This document shows positions 3,687 through 33,107 of a stretch of DNA of 64,000 nucleotides, in pieces (within the stretch, counting starts at the first letter, position 1; each line of letters starts with the position of its first letter). A model generated the notes under the pieces. The model searched no databases, was not told where the DNA came from, and was given only the letters and a program-made list of their open reading frames with translations. The position numbers and the translations under genes are program-made. Origin of the DNA: Cystobacter ferrugineus (GTDB lineage: Bacteria; Myxococcota; Myxococcia; Myxococcales; Myxococcaceae); contig NZ_MPIN01000008.1 in NCBI RefSeq assembly GCF_001887355.1, positions 113,935-177,934 on the forward strand, given 5' to 3'.

Positions 3687-5237
3687 ATGTTCGATAACTC
3701 ACCAGGGGCAGGGGCACGGTGGGCGGGCTTGCTGCTCGCCACGGCCCTGCTATGCACCGGTTGTGCGTCGCTGACGCCACCGCCCAGTCGCGGGATAAAC
3801 CCGCGCCACACACCGCACGAGGCCGTAATGCATTCGTTGCCCCAAGGGCTGAGCGAGGAGCGTCCACCCGACCTCACATTCCCCTCCCCCATCCCTCGTG
3901 AGCCCAAGACACCGGCGCGGCTGCAACGTCGCCGGGGCTCACGGGAAGCCGTGACGGCGGCGGCCACTGGCAGCACCGAGGGAATCGCGCGGCAGAGCAC
4001 CCTCGCAGCTCACCTGGCCTTTCGTGGTGCCGTTGGCGACGTGTCCGGATCCACACGTCGGCTCTCCGGCGAACTCTCCAGACTCAATGGCAGCACCGCT
4101 GGCATCGCCGGCAGGGCCTCCGGCCTCTTCGTTCGCTACGTTGACCATGGAGTCATGCAACTGCGGTGGATGAATGCCGAGCTCGTCGCCGCCACCCGGC
4201 TGGCCAACGCCGCTTCGGAGGTGAAGGACCCGGACATGCAATTCGCCCTGCTGCGCCTCGCCGGTCCACGGCTCGAGGCCGCCATGCTGGGCTCCCTCCT
4301 GCTCTCCGTCTGGCTCGACTTCCTCCACCTCACCGACGTCGCCCTCAACCAGCACTTCTACAGCGTGGAGAGGCTGTTCGTGGACCTGGACCGCGTCCAG
4401 AAGATGCTCGAGCCCGCCATGACGGCGCTCTCTTCCGGGAAACCAGGACAGGTGGAGGCCGCGGCGAAAGACATGCCCATGCTGATAGGCCACCTCACCC
4501 GCGAATTCGCGGCGATACGTGAGGCCATGCACGCGGGGGCGGAGCAACTCCAGAAGATTCTGGTGCTCAAGGAAGCCATCGAGGCACTCACCCTGCTGTC
4601 GGCGTTGAAGTTCTCGCTGCCCACGCTGCCACCATCCGCGCCTGCCCTGCTCGGAGTGGGACTAGTGGCGGGAGGCAATGGTGTGATGATGGGCACGCGC
4701 ATCGTCGTGTCGGCCGAGTGGGTGGAGATGATGCGCCAGTTGGTGCGGGCGGGCGTCCTTTCTCTTCCCGCCGTCAGCGCCGCCGTGCGGATTCAGGCCG
4801 GCCAGGTGATGATGGCGCAGTCTCACGATGAGCTGCCCAAGGGCGTGCGCGACGCGCTCGGCGACGGGCCCGAAGTACGGAGCATGCGCGTGACGGGCAG
4901 GGCAGGGGCTGGCATGAACGAGCCCCCACGACACCACATCCTGCCCAAGGAGTTCCGTGAGTGGTTCGAGAAGCGCGGATTCACCGGCGAGACAAACATC
5001 GACCAGTTCTGCGTCGAGATGGAGCAGGCGCATCATGAGGCCATCCATGGCGGTGGATACTGGAAGCTGGGGCGCACATGGCCCGGTGAATGGAACCGTA
5101 TGATCATGGATGCGCTCTATCAAGCTGAAGCCAAGGCGGGCCGTATGTTGACGTGGAACGAGATCCTGGACATCGTCGCGTACCGCATGAGGCGCTATGG
5201 TGTCCCGATGAAGTTCACTCGAGGGAAGGGGCAATGA
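3687..5237 (+). CDS. SitA-like polymorphic toxin lipoprotein, copy A
   Basis: A 516-aa lipoprotein with a signal peptide ending in LLCTGC (Cys26). The centre (about 110-390) is helical with a Gly/Ala-rich hydrophobic stretch. The C-terminal 110 residues hold the likely toxic domain: RHHILPKEF (H416-H417), WFEKRGF, IDQF and EAIHGGG (H454), a DUF2380-type, HNH-like His pattern. In myxobacteria, SitA lipoproteins with exchangeable C-terminal toxin domains move between kin by outer-membrane exchange and kill cells lacking the cognate immunity protein; membership here is inferred from the lipobox, the C-terminal block and the coupled downstream gene. An in-frame ATG exists at 3651, but 3687 aligns with the start of copy B and is preceded by a purine-rich stretch. 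The stop overlaps the immunity start (ATGA). Confidence 0.85.
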   Translation: MFDNSPGAGARWAGLLLATALLCTGCASLTPPPSRGINPRHTPHEAVMHSLPQGLSEERPPDLTFPSPIPREPKTPARLQRRRGSREAVTAAATGSTEGIARQSTLAAHLAFRGAVGDVSGSTRRLSGELSRLNGSTAGIAGRASGLFVRYVDHGVMQLRWMNAELVAATRLANAASEVKDPDMQFALLRLAGPRLEAAMLGSLLLSVWLDFLHLTDVALNQHFYSVERLFVDLDRVQKMLEPAMTALSSGKPGQVEAAAKDMPMLIGHLTREFAAIREAMHAGAEQLQKILVLKEAIEALTLLSALKFSLPTLPPSAPALLGVGLVAGGNGVMMGTRIVVSAEWVEMMRQLVRAGVLSLPAVSAAVRIQAGQVMMAQSHDELPKGVRDALGDGPEVRSMRVTGRAGAGMNEPPRHHILPKEFREWFEKRGFTGETNIDQFCVEMEQAHHEAIHGGGYWKLGRTWPGEWNRMIMDALYQAEAKAGRMLTWNEILDIVAYRMRRYGVPMKFTRGKGQ

Positions 5238-26704: not shown

Positions 26705-27082
26705 TCACCTGGAGAAGTGGGAGTCGGCGGTCTCCAACAACTTGCGCGCGAGGCTCAGTCGCTCCGGAGGCCAGTCACGCAAGAGGTGGATGATGCGGCT
26801 CAACTCCGGGTGCTCGATGGGCTCGGACGAGCGCCTCGCGGCCGACCCCTTCGCATCCTGCGCCCGCGGCGACAAGGAAAGGAGCGCGTCCGCGGAGAGT
26901 CCCAGGGTGGCGCAGATGCGGCGCAGGGAGGGCACGCTGGGCGTCATCTTCCCACGCTCGATCCGGCCGTAGACCGCGGGCTTGAGCCGGACCCGCTGGG
27001 CGACTTCCGCCTGGGTGAGGCCCTGGCGCAGACGGGCCGCGCGAGCCATGTCCCCGAGAATGTGTCGCAGCTTGTCATCCAT
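26705..27082 (-). CDS. XRE-family regulator
   Basis: A 125-aa protein with a Cro/CI-type helix-turn-helix (about 7-62: ARLRQGLTQAEVAQRVRLKP, VYGRIERGKMTPSVPSLRR) and a C-terminal helical segment. It is similar to the convergent XRE protein, so the pair arose by inverted duplication or by common descent. The start at 27082 places it divergent from the TlpA-like gene, 62 bases away, whose expression it might control. Confidence 0.85.
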   Translation of the reverse strand: MDDKLRHILGDMARAARLRQGLTQAEVAQRVRLKPAVYGRIERGKMTPSVPSLRRICATLGLSADALLSLSPRAQDAKGSAARRSSEPIEHPELSRIIHLLRDWPPERLSLARKLLETADSHFSR

Positions 27083-27144
27083 GGAACCGCGTCTAGCTCA
27101 AGAGACGGCACGCCGGACAGCAACTGCTTCATGCTCTGCGACCT

Positions 27145-27666
27145 ATGACACGGCAAGGCTTCATGCCCAGGGTGGTGAGTGCCCTCATTGGCGCCTGGGT
27201 GGCGTTGGCTCCGGGCTGCCGGAGCGAGCCACCTCCGAGCTACATCCGGCTCGAAGGAGCCGCCCCCGTGCTCGAAGATCCACCGGACGCACGCGCCCAG
27301 CTCATCGTCTTCTGGGCCTCGTGGTGTCCTCCCTGCCGCGAGGAAACCCCCGAGCTGTTGGCCCTGGCGAAGAATCCCCCCGAGGAGCTCCAAATCCTGG
27401 TCTTCAGCCACGACGCCGACATGCAGGGCGTGGAGACGTTCCTCGGAGGGCCGCCCGCCACGGCCCTGCACCTGCGCCTGGACGTGGGAAAGCGCGCCGC
27501 CCTCTCCTTGGGCGTGGACACGCTTCCCACGAGCATCCTGGTGGTGGACGGACGCCTGGTCGCCCGCTTCCAGGGTCCTCGGGAGTGGAATTCCCGCGCG
27601 ATGCGGCGCCTCCTGGAGAAGCTGACCAAGGAGCACCCGGCACGCGCCCCCACCCCAGCGCATTGA
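27145..27666 (+). CDS. TlpA-like thioredoxin lipoprotein
   Basis: A 173-aa exported thioredoxin-fold protein: signal ending APGC, then FWASWCPPCREETPELLAL (active site CPPC near residues 59-62), the helix and strand order of TlpA/ResA, and the cis-Pro loop in DTLPTSILV. It probably reduces or protects thiols in periplasmic proteins. It begins a plus-strand run that continues into the heavy-metal efflux genes, whose products are rich in Cys, so keeping those thiols reduced is a plausible role. Confidence 0.88.
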   Translation: MTRQGFMPRVVSALIGAWVALAPGCRSEPPPSYIRLEGAAPVLEDPPDARAQLIVFWASWCPPCREETPELLALAKNPPEELQILVFSHDADMQGVETFLGGPPATALHLRLDVGKRAALSLGVDTLPTSILVVDGRLVARFQGPREWNSRAMRRLLEKLTKEHPARAPTPAH

Positions 27667-27703
27667 CTCGCCCCACACGTCACCGGTAGGACCCAGGGGA
27701 TCG

Positions 27704-28006
27704 ATGCCGTTGTTCCTCCGCCTCATCGCCCTCCTTCTCATGCTGACGACCGGAGGGGTCTCCCAGACGCTCGCCCTCGTCGGCGACGAGGTCGAGGACT
27801 GTGCGGGCGAAGAGGAAGACGGCCCGTGTGCCGACTGCGCGGGTGACTGCGGCGTGTGCCCATGCTGCCCTCTCCGGGCGATTCCCTCCACGCCCGTCGT
27901 GGAAGTGCCCGCCGAAGTGACCCCGCCGGAACCGGTGCTCGTCTCCCTCCACGAGCCCGCTCTCCTCGCGGTGGGCACGGACATCTTCCAGCCTCCGAGA
28001 GCCTGA
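27704..28006 (+). CDS. Small exported Cys-rich protein
   Basis: A 100-aa protein with a hydrophobic signal (LFLRLIALLLMLTTGGVSQ) and an acidic Cys cluster, DCAGEEEDGPCADCAGDCGVCPCC (in full about 32-55), followed by a Pro/Val-rich tail. The Cys/Asp/Glu cluster would bind soft metal ions. It sits between the thioredoxin gene and the metal-efflux operon, so a metal sensor, scavenger or export partner is likely. CAGGGG upstream of ATG 27704 supports the start. The 176 bases after it hold no supportable gene. Confidence 0.7.
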   Translation: MPLFLRLIALLLMLTTGGVSQTLALVGDEVEDCAGEEEDGPCADCAGDCGVCPCCPLRAIPSTPVVEVPAEVTPPEPVLVSLHEPALLAVGTDIFQPPRA

Positions 28007-28182
28007 CCCTCGACCCTCGCGGGAGAAGTGTGTCCAGCGTTCCCCGCCACGAGCCTCTTCAGGCCTCGAGAGTCCTCCCCGCGTCCGTGCGTCCCCAGTC
28101 CCCGTCTCCCCGTGCATCCCGCGCGGGGCGTTCACCCCCGTGATCGGCCTTCCAGGTGAAGGCGCACGGCCGGAGTTCCTCC

Positions 28183-28458
28183 ATGCGTTCCTTGCGTTCA
28201 CTGTCCCTCGTGGTGTCCCTGCTCGTCGTCCCCGCCCTGCCCGCCCTGGCCGAGGACAAGAAGCCCACCGAGGCCGCCAAGACCGAGAGCGGGAAGGCCA
28301 CCTGTGAGCACGGTGTCCAGAAGAGCCTCTGTACCCGCTGCAACCCGAAGCTGGCCACCGTCTACAAGGCCAAGGGCGACTGGTGCGCCGAACACGAGCG
28401 GCCCGAGTCCCAGTGCGTCCTCTGCCACCCAGAGCTGGCCCAGAAGGGAGTGAAGTAG
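28183..28458 (+). CDS. Small periplasmic protein with CxEH/CxxC repeats
   Basis: A 91-aa exported protein: signal ending PALA, then CEHGVQKSLCTRCNP and WCAEHERPESQCVLCHPEL. The same repeat unit (C.EHG.P.S.C..C[HN]P) is found in the N-terminal part of the RND adaptor that starts one base after this stop codon. The repeats should bind metal; the CVLCH piece also fits the heme-attachment pattern CxxCH. It is probably a periplasmic metal carrier for the efflux pump. GGAG before ATG 28183 supports the start. Confidence 0.75.
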   Translation: MRSLRSLSLVVSLLVVPALPALAEDKKPTEAAKTESGKATCEHGVQKSLCTRCNPKLATVYKAKGDWCAEHERPESQCVLCHPELAQKGVK

Positions 28459-30027
28459 ATGCGCCCCCGCATCGGCCCGAGGGTCGTGGCGGTCCTCCTC
28501 GCCCTGGGAGCGGCGGCCTGCTCGAGCGGCTCCAAGCCCACCGGGGCGGAGAAGTCCACCCCGCCTCCCGTCGATGCGGGTCCCCCCTCCGCGACAGCCA
28601 TCACCACCCAAGAGGTGAAGTTGTGTGAGCACGGCGTGCCCGCGGAGCTGTGCACGAAGTGCAACCCGGAGTTCATCGACGTCTTCAAGGCCCAGGGCGA
28701 TTGGTGCGAGGAGCACGGCCTGCCGGAGTCCCACTGCAAGCAATGCCATCCGGAGCTCACCTTCACCGCGCGGTCCTCCACCCCGAAGGATTGGTGCAAG
28801 GAGCACGCGGTGCCGGAGTCCCAATGCACCCGGTGCCACCCGGAGCTCGTGGCGAAGTTCATCGAGGCCGGGGACTACTGCCGCGAGCATGGCTACCCCG
28901 AGTCCGTGTGCCCCTACTGCCACCCGGAGAAGGTGAGGGCCGCGGGCGCTGAACCGCCCGTCTTCCCCGAGCCCGGCACCCGCGTGCGCCTCGCCTCGGC
29001 CGAGACGGCTCGCGAGGCCGGCATCCGGACAGTGCGCGTGCGGCGCCAACCCTTCGCCCGCACGCTGGAGGTGGTTGGACAGCTCGACTTCAACCAGAAC
29101 CGGCTGGCGCGGCTGTCGACCCGGAGCGACGCGCTGGTGATGGAGGTCCGGGTGGATGTCGGCGACGAGGTGAAGGCCGGCCAGCCCCTCGCGGTGGTGA
29201 CGTCCGCCACCGTCGGCGAGGATCAAGGACGGCTCTCGACGGCACAGGCCCGGGTGCGGGCCGCCCTCGCGGCGGTCTCCCGTGAGCAGACCCTCGTCGA
29301 GCGAGGCATCAGCCCTCGGCAGGCCCTGGAAGAAGCCCAGGCGGAGCTGGCGGCGGCCGAGGGTGAACGCGAGGCGGCTCGAGCTGCCCTGGGAGCCGCG
29401 GGCGCCTCCACCGGAAGCCAGCAGGGACTCTTCACGTTGAAGGCCCCCTTCGCGGGAACGGTGGTGGCCCGGGATGCCGTGCCCGGCCGGCACGTCGCGG
29501 GGGGACAGACGCTCCTCCAGCTCGCGGACCTGGGCACCCTCTGGGCCCAGCTCGAGGTGCCCGAAGCGGACGCCCTGGCCGTGCGCGCGGGTCAGCCCGT
29601 CACCCTCTCCTTCGAGGGCGTGCCCGGAGAGACGCGCCAGGCCCCCCTCACCCGCGTGGGTGCCTCGGTGGAGCCAGCCACCCGCACCGTGCGCGCCCGC
29701 GTGGAGCTGCCCAATCCGGACCATGCGCTCAAGGCGGGCCTCTTCGTCCGGGCCCGGGTGCAGGTGTCCGCCCCGCATGACGCGCTCCTGCTCCCCCGCG
29801 AAGCCATCCAGCACGCCGAGGGGCGCCCCCTCGTCTTCGTGAAGACGGGAGCGGGCCTCTACGAGCCCGTCGCCGTGGAGCTGGGTGCCGCGACCCGAGA
29901 GCACGTGGAGGTGGTGAAGGGACTCGAGCCCGGTGCGGAGGTCGTCACCACGGGCGCCTTCCTCCTCAAGACGGAGATCCTCAAGGGCTCCATCGGCGCG
30001 GGCTGCTGCGAGGAAGGCGGCGGGTAG
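28459..30027 (+). CDS. RND efflux periplasmic adaptor (CusB/CzcB type) with metal-binding repeats
   Basis: A 522-aa membrane-fusion protein. After a lipoprotein signal (ALGAAACSS) come several tandem Cys/His repeats (about 55-160: CEHGVPAELCTKCNP, WCEEHGLPESHCKQCHPE, WCKEHAVPESQCTRCHPE, YCREHGYPESVCPYCHPE), then barrel-sandwich, alpha-hairpin and beta-barrel domains of the HlyD/CusB type (about 180-510) ending GCCEE. It would hand metal ions to the inner-membrane pump encoded five bases downstream. The N-terminal repeat domain is much larger than that of standard CusB/CzcB. The outer-membrane channel gene is not in this window. Confidence 0.9.
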   Translation: MRPRIGPRVVAVLLALGAAACSSGSKPTGAEKSTPPPVDAGPPSATAITTQEVKLCEHGVPAELCTKCNPEFIDVFKAQGDWCEEHGLPESHCKQCHPELTFTARSSTPKDWCKEHAVPESQCTRCHPELVAKFIEAGDYCREHGYPESVCPYCHPEKVRAAGAEPPVFPEPGTRVRLASAETAREAGIRTVRVRRQPFARTLEVVGQLDFNQNRLARLSTRSDALVMEVRVDVGDEVKAGQPLAVVTSATVGEDQGRLSTAQARVRAALAAVSREQTLVERGISPRQALEEAQAELAAAEGEREAARAALGAAGASTGSQQGLFTLKAPFAGTVVARDAVPGRHVAGGQTLLQLADLGTLWAQLEVPEADALAVRAGQPVTLSFEGVPGETRQAPLTRVGASVEPATRTVRARVELPNPDHALKAGLFVRARVQVSAPHDALLLPREAIQHAEGRPLVFVKTGAGLYEPVAVELGAATREHVEVVKGLEPGAEVVTTGAFLLKTEILKGSIGAGCCEEGGG

Positions 30028-30032
30028 CGGCC

Positions 30033-33000
30033 ATGCTCTCCTGGCTCATCGACGCGTCGCTGCGGCACCGCCAGGTCGTCCTCGTGGGGGCGTTGGCCCT
30101 CATCGTCTCGGGCGTGCTCGCCTTCCGGGAGCTGCCCCTGGACGCCTTCCCGGACACCACCCCCACCCAGGTCCAGGTCAATGCCGTCGCCCCGGCCCTC
30201 ACCCCCGTGGAGGTGGAGCGTCAACTCACCCTCCCCATCGAGCAGGCCCTGGCCGGACTGCCCCGCGTGCAGGAGCTGCGCTCGCTCTCCAAGTTCGGGC
30301 TCGCCCAGGTCACCCTCCAGTTCGAGGACGGCACGGACCTGTGGTTCGCCCGGCAGCAGGTGGCCGAGCGTCTGGGCCGCGTCGAGCTCCCCGCGGGTCT
30401 GGCGCGGCCCACCCTGGGGCCCGTGGCCACGGGACTCGGAGAGGTCTTCCACTACCTGGTGAAGAGCCGAACGCGGAGCCTCGCCGAGCTGCGCACGCTT
30501 CATGACTGGGTCATCGCCCCGAGGCTGCGCGGCGTGCCGGGCGTGGCGGAGGTGAACGCCTGGGGCGGCGAGGAGAAGCAGTGGCACGTGGTGGTGGAGC
30601 CCCAGCGCCTCCAGCAGTTCAACCTCTCGCTGGGGGACGTCTACCGGGCGCTGGAGGCCAACAACGCCAACGTGGGCGGCGGCGTGGTGGAGCGGGGAGG
30701 CGGGGCCAGCCTCGTGCTCGGGGTGGCCGCGCTGGAGAAGGGCGAGGACGTCGAGGAGGTGGTGATCGCCGCACGCCATGGCGTACCGGTGCGCATCCGG
30801 GACGTGGCCCGCGTGGAAGTGGGCGGGGAGATCCGCCGAGGCGCCACCACGGCGGATGGCGAGGGCGAGGCCATCCTGGGCCTGGGCTTCATGTTGGTGG
30901 GAGAGAACTCCCACACGGTGACGAAGGCGTTGGCCCAGCGTCTGGAGGAGGTAGGAAAGAGCCTCCCCGAGGACGTCCAGGTGGAGCCCGTCTACGAGCG
31001 CACCGAGTTGGTGGACCACGTGTTGCGCACGGTGCGCACCAACCTCTTCGAGGGCGCCCTGCTCGTCATCGCGGTCCTCTTCGTCGCGCTGGGCCACTGG
31101 CGCGCGGGCCTCATCGTGGCGGCGGCCATCCCCTTGTCCCTGCTGTTCGCATTCAACGCGATGCTGAGCTTCGGCATCGCCGGCACCCTCATGTCCCTGG
31201 GAGCCATCGACTTCGGCCTCGTGGTGGACTCGTCCGTCATCCTCGTGGAGAACGCGGAGCAGCGGCTCGCCGAGGCCCCCCCGGACAGCGACTCGCGGCG
31301 GGTGATCCGGGATGCCACCCTCGAGGTGCGCGAGCCCACCCTCTTCGGCGAGCTCATCATCGGCGTGGTGTATCTGCCCCTGCTCACCCTGGAGGGCGTG
31401 GAGGGCAGGCTCTTCCGCCCCATGGCCCTCACCGTCATCTTCGCCCTGCTCGGCTCGGCCCTCCTGTCCCTGACGCTCATGCCGGTGCTCGCTTCCTTCG
31501 CGCTGAAGCGCAGGGCGGGCCGTCACCACAAGCCGCGGCTCATCATGCTGCTCGAGCGCGCCTACCAGCCCGTCCTCCACCAGGCCCTCGCCCATCCCCG
31601 GCGCGTGCTCGCCGGCGCGGGACTGCTCGGGGTGGGAGCCCTCGTGGCCGCCACGCAGCTCGGCAGTGAGTTCGTTCCCCGCCTCTCCGAGGGCACCCTC
31701 GTCATCAACACCGTGCGCCTGGCCGAGGTGTCCCTCACCGAGTCCATCCGCTATGGCGGGCAGATCGAGAAGGTGCTGCGCGAGAAGTTCCCGGACGAGG
31801 TGAAGCGCGTGTGGACGCGCACCGGCACGGCGGAGATCGCCACCGACGCCATGGGCATCGAGCTGTCCGATGTCTTCATCACCTTGAAGCCCCGCGAGGA
31901 GTGGAAGCGGGCGGAGACCCAGGAGGAGCTCGTCGCGGAGATGAAGGCGGAGCTGGCGGACCTGCCCGGCATGCGCATGGCGTTCCTCCAGCCCATTGAA
32001 ATGCGCGTCAACGAGATGATCGCCGGGGTGCGCGGCGACGTGGGCATCAAGCTCTTCGGAGACGACCTGGACGTGCTCGAGGCCAAGGCGCGGGAGATGG
32101 AGGCCGTGGTGCGAGCCATCCCCGGGGCCGCGGACGTCACCGTGGAGCAGGTGACGGGCCAGCCCGTGCTGCAAGTGACGGTGGACCGCTCGGCCATCGC
32201 CCGCCACGGCATCCCCGCCCGGGAGGTGCTCGACGTGGTGGAGGCCGTGGGCACACGCCGGGTGGGCGAGGTGCGCGAGGGCGAGCGGCGCTTTCCCCTC
32301 GCGGTGCGCCTCGCGCCGGAGTACCGCGAGGAGCCGGCGAAGCTCGCCACCGTGCCCGTGACGGCTCCGAGTGGGGAGCGGGTACCGCTGGGGCGGCTGG
32401 CCACGCTCCGGGAGGTGTCCGGTCCCACCACCATCCAGCGAGAGGGGGGACAGCGCCGCCTCGTCATCCAGGCCAATGTGCGCGGCCGGGACCTGGGCGG
32501 CTTCGTGGACGAGGTGCGCCGGACCCTGGAGGAGAAGGTGGAGTTGCCAGCCGGCTACCATGTCCGCTTCGGCGGGCAGTTCGAGCACCTGGAGCGCGCC
32601 CGGACGCGGCTGCTCATCGTGGTGCCCATCGCCCTCGCGCTCGTCTTCGCCCTGCTCTACCTCACCTACCGCCGGGTGCTGGACGCGCTGCGCATCCTCG
32701 TCAGCGTGCCCTTCGCCTGGGTGGGAGGCGTCCTGGCGCTGCTCATGCGCGGACTGCCCTTCTCCATCTCCGCGGCCGTGGGCTTCATCGCCCTGTCGGG
32801 GGTGTCGGTGCTGGGGGACATGGTGCTCGTCAGCCGCGTGCGCCAGTTGCTCGAGCGGGGCCTGCCACTCGGGGAGGCCCTGCGCGAAGCGGCCCTGTCA
32901 CGCCTGCGGCCGGTGCTGATGACGGCCGCCGTGGCCGCCATCGGCTTCCTTCCCATGGCGCTCAACACGGGGGTGGGCGCGGAGGTGCAGCGCCCCCTGG

Positions 33001-33107
33001 CCACCGTCGTCATCGGCGGCCTCCTGTCCTCCACCGTGCTGACCCTGCTCGTGCTGCCCGTCCTCTACTCCGTCTTCGGCGCCGGACGGACCCACACGGA
33101 CAGGTGA
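30033..33107 (+). CDS. Heavy-metal RND efflux pump (CzcA/CusA family)
   Basis: A 1,024-aa inner-membrane proton/metal antiporter of the HME-RND family: twelve membrane helices, two large periplasmic loops, and a helix-4 motif AIDFGLVVDSSVILVEN with the Asp, Asp and Glu spacing of CzcA, which favours divalent ions (Zn, Co, Ni, Cd) over Cu(I). N-terminal LPLDAFPDTTPTQVQV and AFLQPIEMRVNEMIAG are family hallmarks. It is the final gene of a tight operon with the adaptor and small Cys-rich proteins. The convergent OmpA gene ends six bases away. Confidence 0.93.
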   Translation: MLSWLIDASLRHRQVVLVGALALIVSGVLAFRELPLDAFPDTTPTQVQVNAVAPALTPVEVERQLTLPIEQALAGLPRVQELRSLSKFGLAQVTLQFEDGTDLWFARQQVAERLGRVELPAGLARPTLGPVATGLGEVFHYLVKSRTRSLAELRTLHDWVIAPRLRGVPGVAEVNAWGGEEKQWHVVVEPQRLQQFNLSLGDVYRALEANNANVGGGVVERGGGASLVLGVAALEKGEDVEEVVIAARHGVPVRIRDVARVEVGGEIRRGATTADGEGEAILGLGFMLVGENSHTVTKALAQRLEEVGKSLPEDVQVEPVYERTELVDHVLRTVRTNLFEGALLVIAVLFVALGHWRAGLIVAAAIPLSLLFAFNAMLSFGIAGTLMSLGAIDFGLVVDSSVILVENAEQRLAEAPPDSDSRRVIRDATLEVREPTLFGELIIGVVYLPLLTLEGVEGRLFRPMALTVIFALLGSALLSLTLMPVLASFALKRRAGRHHKPRLIMLLERAYQPVLHQALAHPRRVLAGAGLLGVGALVAATQLGSEFVPRLSEGTLVINTVRLAEVSLTESIRYGGQIEKVLREKFPDEVKRVWTRTGTAEIATDAMGIELSDVFITLKPREEWKRAETQEELVAEMKAELADLPGMRMAFLQPIEMRVNEMIAGVRGDVGIKLFGDDLDVLEAKAREMEAVVRAIPGAADVTVEQVTGQPVLQVTVDRSAIARHGIPAREVLDVVEAVGTRRVGEVREGERRFPLAVRLAPEYREEPAKLATVPVTAPSGERVPLGRLATLREVSGPTTIQREGGQRRLVIQANVRGRDLGGFVDEVRRTLEEKVELPAGYHVRFGGQFEHLERARTRLLIVVPIALALVFALLYLTYRRVLDALRILVSVPFAWVGGVLALLMRGLPFSISAAVGFIALSGVSVLGDMVLVSRVRQLLERGLPLGEALREAALSRLRPVLMTAAVAAIGFLPMALNTGVGAEVQRPLATVVIGGLLSSTVLTLLVLPVLYSVFGAGRTHTDR

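Follow-up and report, generated by a model that had tools for sequence, protein, structure and literature searches.

A Cys/His repeat unit common to a small exported protein and the efflux adaptor of a putative metal-export operon in Cystobacter ferrugineus

By analyzing a 64,000-nucleotide stretch of the 12 Mb genome of Cystobacter ferrugineus (contig NZ_MPIN01000008.1; hereafter the window, whose own numbering is used throughout), we found a Cys/His repeat unit that a small exported protein has in common with the periplasmic adaptor encoded next to it. The two genes belong to a cluster of five same-direction genes, which encode a TlpA-like thioredoxin, a Cys-rich protein of 100 amino acids (aa), the exported protein of 91 aa, an adaptor of the heavy-metal efflux resistance-nodulation-division (HME-RND) type and a CzcA/CusA permease. 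The unit is a real repeat: the 91-aa protein has two copies and the adaptor N-terminus has four, which bears out what an earlier note on this DNA had described for these two proteins. On balance, we favor reading the cluster as an operon for periplasmic metal export, in which a knuckle metallochaperone and a knuckle-armed adaptor would serve a CzcA-type pump and a CutF-like protein would act as the sensor.

The Cys/His unit and its predicted ligands

The metal-site pattern of the unit is C-x(1,2)-H-x6-C-x2-C. When searched in its longer form, C-x(1,2)-H-x6-C-x2-C-[HN]-P, it matched six times in a six-frame search of the window, only within the small-protein and adaptor genes, and not at all in any of 60 dinucleotide shuffles of the window. 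The literal pattern given by the earlier note matched one small-protein unit and three adaptor units, and a looser first unit is present in each protein (CEHGVQKSLCTRCNP in the small protein, CEHGVPAELCTKCNP in the adaptor). In the small protein (28183..28458, plus strand, as are all features below unless stated; 91 aa from the ATG), the unit pair spans 28303..28437 and matched the A3 profile at 1.4e-22 in the own genome. In the adaptor (28459..30027, 522 aa), pattern matches and an alignment of unit-bearing adaptors placed the four N-terminal units at 28624..28668 (CEHGVPAELCTKCNP), 28705..28752 (CEEHGLPESHCKQCHP), 28795..28842 (CKEHAVPESQCTRCHP) and 28879..28926 (CREHGYPESVCPYCHP). Units in a pair are connected by a kept linker with the consensus P-E-L-I-x-x-F-K-A-x-G-D-W. 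The earlier note had assigned the repeat to two exported proteins as well as the adaptor; its carriers are the adaptor and a single small exported protein, and the unit pattern is absent from the Cys-rich protein upstream. A search of the own genome (E up to 0.001) detected the units in this cluster alone and in no third protein.

A survey of other genomes, as the earlier note had proposed, found matches to the unit-pair profile in 57 of 195 sampled genomes of the own phylum and in 48 of 294 genomes of a draw from the planctomycete phylum, while among 72,556 plasmid records (tblastn) the pair occurred in two, both planctomycete. In the 16 members of the small-protein alignment (A2), the Cys and His ligands are nearly all invariant, and the N-terminus is signal-like by eye. 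An AlphaFold2 model of the small protein predicted a compact fold for residues 41-90 (block means 90-94), and the adaptor unit pairs reached block means of 64-85; the mean for the spacer (101-110) was 47. No model for the unit domain was found in Pfam or NCBIfam with the window proteins, nor in Pfam with the 16 A2 members, one of which matched DUF2749 at 4e-4. Among known zinc domains, the B-box (Trim66 model) matched weakly in 12 of the 16 members, with a best E of 0.012 that is below the cut-off, and was rejected. A PDB sequence search with the unit pair gave no convincing relative (the best match, an antitermination protein, had an E of 0.045), Foldseek with the small-protein model returned 0 matches, and among the matches listed the domain is undescribed in the titles and abstracts of open-licence papers. 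The unit thus brings to notice a putative metal-handling domain for which no Pfam or NCBIfam model was found.

To evaluate the ligands, we counted residues in 456 context-dereplicated units from 171 open frames. The first Cys and the His were found in all 456 units, the second Cys in 454, and the third Cys in 446, with His in 7 and 3 unaligned at this position, although the invariance is partly imposed by the search, whose profile was built from units with these ligands. The residue after CxxC was N in 228, H in 134, and other or unaligned in 94 units, and it varies among orthologous repeats; this free variation just after CxxC is a more telling result than the ligand invariance. A Cys-to-His swap at one ligand would keep a metal site and break both a heme CxxCH and a disulfide, which favors a metal site. 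Judged from these patterns, the units likely bind metal and are unlikely to bind heme. Of the proposal in the earlier note that they might bind metal, heme or both, the metal part is thus supported by the ligand conservation and the fourth-ligand Cys-to-His swaps, and the heme part is opposed by the presence of a His after CxxC in only 134 of 456 units.

CxxCH is found in three adaptor units, just as the earlier note had stated, and in one small-protein unit, and the adaptor has a weak Pfam match to Cytochrome_C7 (E 0.2, below the cut-off), from which the CxxCH units could be viewed as covalent heme sites and the adaptor N-terminus as a small multiheme cytochrome. We regard this as very improbable, given that the His follows CxxC in just 134 units and varies between orthologous repeats, and that CxxC itself reads CxxH in 7 units; membership in the multiheme c-type cytochromes failed because CxxCH is not conserved in the units.

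Linkage of the units to an efflux pump and to thioredoxin

The adaptor matched HlyD_D23 (3.2e-42) and HlyD_3 (6.7e-21), both above the Pfam cut-offs, and TIGR01730 (RND_mfp) at 174 bits with a cut-off of 94.9. Assignment to the CzcB/NccB subfamily was rejected, since TIGR00999 gave 186.6 bits, which is less than its cut-off of 319.3; the protein is therefore described as an HME-type RND adaptor and not filed as CzcB/NccB. It ends in a conserved GAGC(C) tail (29990-30027), here GAGCC, that is common to many unit-bearing adaptors (alignment A1) and whose cysteines may form another metal site. The permease (30033..33107) matched TIGR00914 at 1180.6 bits (cut-off 701.45) as a CzcA/CusA-family heavy-metal RND permease. 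Among PDB sequences, the best match was ZneB for the adaptor (1.6e-28) and ZneA for the permease (9.4e-201). In an alignment with solved structures, the permease carries N, L and E at the positions of CusA M573, M623 and M672, and a CusA-type Cu/Ag permease (HME4) was rejected because the equivalent methionines are absent. According to Table 1 of PMC3637150, the Cd/Zn exporter CzrA and the Ni/Co exporter NczA likewise do not have these methionines, with E at 672, so that a divalent ion (Zn, Cd, Co or Ni) would be a better guess for the transported ion than Cu or Ag. Five other HME-like permeases, with 37-51% identity over nearly the full length, are encoded in the own genome.

To assess whether the units travel with such pumps, 40 further loci around unit matches were inspected (38, one and one from three surveys, with some genomes represented twice). 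A CzcA/CusA-like permease frame was found inside the fetched stretch in 38 of the 40, and in the two permease-less loci (L151 and L153) the adaptor sits at a contig end. The adaptor bears units in 37 loci. A separate small unit protein was found in 27 loci; it precedes the unit-bearing adaptor in 7 of them and follows it in 17, which indicates that the linkage is not one inherited layout; L141 was excluded from this count, as its 270-codon frame overlaps its adaptor.

The units are also linked to thioredoxin, which the earlier note had missed. The first gene of the cluster (27145..27666) encodes a TlpA/ResA-like, probably exported thioredoxin with the motif WASWCPPC (Pfam Thioredoxin 1.4e-8, Redoxin 1.5e-8), and WCxxC is conserved in its homologues. 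Among the 29 class-survey loci (L003-L031), the thioredoxin was detected in 24 by tblastn and the Cys-rich protein in 25; the four loci with neither are short (1.8-2.5 kb), and L030 is without the thioredoxin match only. In a second class of matches from other myxobacteria (L055-L065), each of the 11 fetched proteins carries two units and, after them, a WCxxC thioredoxin-like domain, and Pfam Thioredoxin was confirmed in both of the fusion proteins scanned. In three of these loci (L063-L065), His is the fourth ligand of the first unit. L063 alone of the 11 loci gave a permease match, at a distance of about 4 kb, so that the fused proteins are mostly not near a pump. In L057, the neighbor of the fusion gene encodes proline dehydrogenase, and the same gene lies 1.8 kb off in L056. 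Fusion in some loci together with gene neighborhood in others suggests that thioredoxin services the unit cysteines.

With thioredoxin as the first gene of a conserved cluster and units fused directly to a WCxxC domain in all 11 fetched proteins, the two could instead form a thiol/disulfide switch, with redox-active cysteines that gate the pump or protect periplasmic thiols. We find this improbable, as the nearly invariant His and the fourth-ligand Cys-to-His swaps are expected of a metal site and do not suit a disulfide. A less remote alternative, which we nevertheless hold to be unlikely, is that the knuckles hold structural zinc for docking of the small protein to the adaptor or for the shape of the adaptor ring, while the transported metal bypasses them. 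Cys3His is a typical structural zinc site, the same unit pair and conserved linker occur on both proteins, and the module is also found on the thioredoxin-fused proteins, mostly away from a pump. On the other side, the strict-pattern matches per adaptor range from 1 to 6 across relatives, and pairs have been lost in some orthologues, with two units retained in L066, L067 and L068; such variation suits a metal-holding capacity over a fixed interface.

The Cys-rich leader protein and the intergenic region

The gene ahead of the small protein (27704..28006) encodes a 100-aa leader with an N-terminus judged hydrophobic by eye only, a Cys cluster with CxxC, a 41-residue linker and the C-terminus DIFQPPRA; the next gene starts 176 nt downstream. 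The earlier note had correctly described it as differently Cys-rich and had missed its CutF-like anatomy. In an alignment of 33 distinct homologues, the own protein included, seven Cys columns are kept in 26-33 of the 33, and the last eight residues conform to [DG]-[IVL]-F-[QRH]-PP-[RK]-[ATV] in all of them. In all 33 close homologues, 39-43 residues lie between the final CxxC and the PP; two rows at 49 and 50 had matched an earlier CxxC and give 40 and 41 when counted from the last Cys, and two rows carry later stray Cys. This spacing is held while equal-length linkers show a mean identity of 54% and a lowest of 17%.

The rule for CutF-like proteins, as set out in passages of PMC9973294, comprises an N-terminal signal peptide, a Cys motif and a PP near the C-terminus, with CutF itself having a Cys motif and a terminal GPPPRL. 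CruR, in the portions of PMC9426467 and PMC8456105 that describe it, has 45 residues between CXXC and RAPP, kept to within one or two. By the published rule, the signal peptide aside, the leader is probably a CutF-like nascent metal sensor: it is short, has an N-terminus that looks signal-like by eye, a Cys motif and, at nearly fixed spacing from it, a PP close to the C-terminus, and lies before metal-export genes, with an intergenic region of 176 nt versus 162 for cruR. It differs in having seven Cys and an FQPPRA end, versus RAPP or GPPPRL. No match to DUF2946 (the CruR family) was found in 11 leader members of alignment A4 (E up to 10), and a link to DUF6660 is weak (best E 0.018 among 3 of the 11 A4 members; E 0.003, below the cut-off, in 1 of 142 genomes). 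The CutF-like list, as excerpted from PMC9973294, already includes proteins whose genes precede those for an RND permease, an adaptor and CusF, and consists mostly of Pseudomonadota and Bacteroidota. With the present locus, a CutF-like leader would be placed before such a pump within Myxococcota; the planctomycete draw probably contributes one or more genomes with this arrangement. When 24 loci of that draw were scanned for leaders, the filter retained four, of which L137 and L124 hold plausible candidates. In L137, a Cys-rich leader-like frame on the reverse strand (4157-4564) lies immediately before a unit-bearing adaptor and ends in EVFHPPRA; 40 residues separate its last Cys from the PP.

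The intergenic alignment contains a near-invariant block after the leader stop codon. The 16-mer TCACGGGAGACGTGTG was found in 26 exact copies in 24 of 142 class genomes, with 0 for its reversed control, and by coordinates 22 of the 26 copies lie at the same place in the operon. A 23rd copy, in G115 on contig C929, where the stretch is short, is probably at the same place, and the remaining three (in G046, G108 and G132) are at other sites, two being within other open frames. The window copy, CGGGAGAAGTGTGTCC, is a variant of this 16-mer and lies 14 bases past the leader stop (28020..28035). When one mismatch was allowed in the own genome, 10 matches were obtained versus 3 for the reversed control, which means that the element is not specific in that form. 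A second copy in the own genome, CGGGAGACGTGTGTCC (C6:334417-334432, in L164, C6:330500-337500), lies 111 nt after another leader-like frame, which has a hydrophobic N-terminus, DAHCAH and the C-terminus KASPPRV, and precedes a probable lipoprotein ending in GHEHEH; L164 is perhaps a second sensor-led metal operon. A CorE sigma-factor promoter, for which AAC was sought in the -35 region in the work excerpted from PMC3107203, was dropped as the meaning of the element, which is without AAC.

Two RNA hairpins are predicted upstream of the small gene. For the hairpin counts, 4 of the 36 leader loci were dropped because no small-gene start was usable (L025, L030, L031 and L072). Rfam gave a single chance-level match over 27000-30500 (E 0.75, far below the cut-off), and RNAalifold on the full intergenic alignment gave a weak -1.84 kcal/mol. 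For hairpin A (28108..28128), re-deals on fixed alignment columns were as good in 6 of 2000 for the 8 distinct rows with an 8-bp stem and in 176 of 2000 for the 5 distinct rows with a 7-bp stem, and best-match picking of the arms, a test that leans toward such a result, gave 0 of 1000. Hairpin B (28138..28169) leaves two bases between its end and the ribosome-binding site GGAG (28172-28175), and in all 32 upstream regions tested, a search that maximizes pairing put the end of its stem 1-2 nt ahead of GGAG. Its scores exceed those of 41 control genes (Mann-Whitney p 5e-8, with sequences that are not independent). With a corrected anchor, re-deals of hairpin B were as good in 4 of 2000 (non-redundant, 36 of 2000), a test in which some rows are out of register, L047 is without the anchor and differing hairpin lengths contribute; with a bad anchor, its arms gave no signal (143 of 1000; non-redundant, 533 of 1000). 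The fold energy before GGAG had z < -1.645 in 22 of 32 regions, with a mean of -2.46, for a fold not truly forced to end at GGAG, and the window itself gave z of -2.29 for 27985-28215 and +0.63 for 28113-28195. The sensor assignment would rest mainly on the anatomy of the leader protein.

A proposed metal route and its relation to known systems

In the operon that we favor, each repeat unit would be one metal-binding knuckle formed by Cys, His, Cys and a fourth Cys or His, and the 91-aa protein would be a two-knuckle periplasmic metallochaperone. The four N-terminal knuckles of the adaptor would take the metal of the chaperone, or gather metal directly, and hand it to the CzcA-type permease, while thioredoxin would keep the cysteines reduced and hence able to hold metal. 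Metal caught by the Cys cluster of the leader during its export would alter stalling at the C-terminal PPRA and thereby set downstream expression. The domain, the conservation of its ligands, the gene linkage, the anatomy of the leader and the linked cis element are observed; we infer not only metal binding in this scheme but also the direction of transfer, the identity of the metal, the thiol upkeep, and the stalling with its sign.

Several observations weigh against this reading. The unit domain is not pump-specific; the invariance of its ligands is in part a product of the search; and in 3 of the 40 loci (L145, L156 and L163), the adaptor near the small unit protein is without a unit. No outer-membrane factor or CzcC-like gene is encoded near the cluster, the closest match on the contig being about 0.3 Mb off. 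For the leader, the 39-43 residues to the PP differ from the 45 to RAPP in CruR, and three Anaeromyxobacter leaders that BLAST missed (L041, L043 and L044; diverged frames recognized by eye, ending in GVFHPPRA or GVFHPPQS) have 28, 30 and 44 residues from the last Cys, so that the spacing is not kept there. The CutF-like sensors studied so far respond to copper, whereas the permease here looks divalent. Hairpin B surpassed its shuffles at p < 0.05 in 12 of 32 regions, the window not among them, and the hairpin evidence as a whole is mixed, moderate at best.

The earlier note had held that a metal relay into an efflux pump would be unusual, but there is precedent for one: passages of PMC4446572 describe a relay from CusF via the CusB N-terminus to CusA and a CusF-like domain on SilB. 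As in CusF/CusB/SilB, a small candidate periplasmic metal-binding protein and a candidate metal-binding adaptor extension are encoded here with the permease, and, as in SilB, the adaptor extension is related to the free chaperone. Going by gene layout, the knuckle proteins may work like CusF and the CusB/SilB extension with unrelated sequence. The knuckle array is N-terminal, as is the CusB extension, and the CusF-like domain of SilB is C-terminal; repeated Cys/His knuckles take the place that the beta-barrel has in CusF or the Met-containing tail in CusB. No Pfam match to the CusF family was found in the 16 A2 members (E up to 1), though a CusF-like function may still hold. Compared with CzcCBA/ZneCAB, the permease is nearest ZneA and the adaptor nearest ZneB by sequence among solved structures, and the CusA Met ligands are absent in this permease. 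It differs from these systems in that its transmembrane helix IV reads DFGLVVDSSVILVEN versus the DFGx3DGAx3VEN given in the excerpted text of PMC3637150, that the adaptor bears the knuckle array and that no CzcC-like gene lies alongside. The copper/silver chaperone-plus-adaptor relay would thereby gain an unrelated, repeat-based counterpart on divalent-looking pumps. The cluster is also a compact genetic system that would join nascent-chain metal sensing and adaptor metal delivery.

A further-reaching possibility, which we regard as doubtful, is a self-contained operon in which the nascent leader senses periplasmic metal while it is being exported and sets translation of the metallochaperone, the zinc-knuckle domain of the latter also arms the adaptor as a multi-site metal conduit and a dedicated thioredoxin keeps the thiols loaded; the weaker fixed-column result for hairpin A slightly lowers its odds. 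If true, it would be a second solution, of independent evolutionary origin, to the task of the CusF/CusB relay, occurring in two phyla and with a nascent-chain sensor for a non-copper metal. Divergently upstream of the cluster, a helix-turn-helix gene (HTH_3) lies on the minus strand at 26705-27082.

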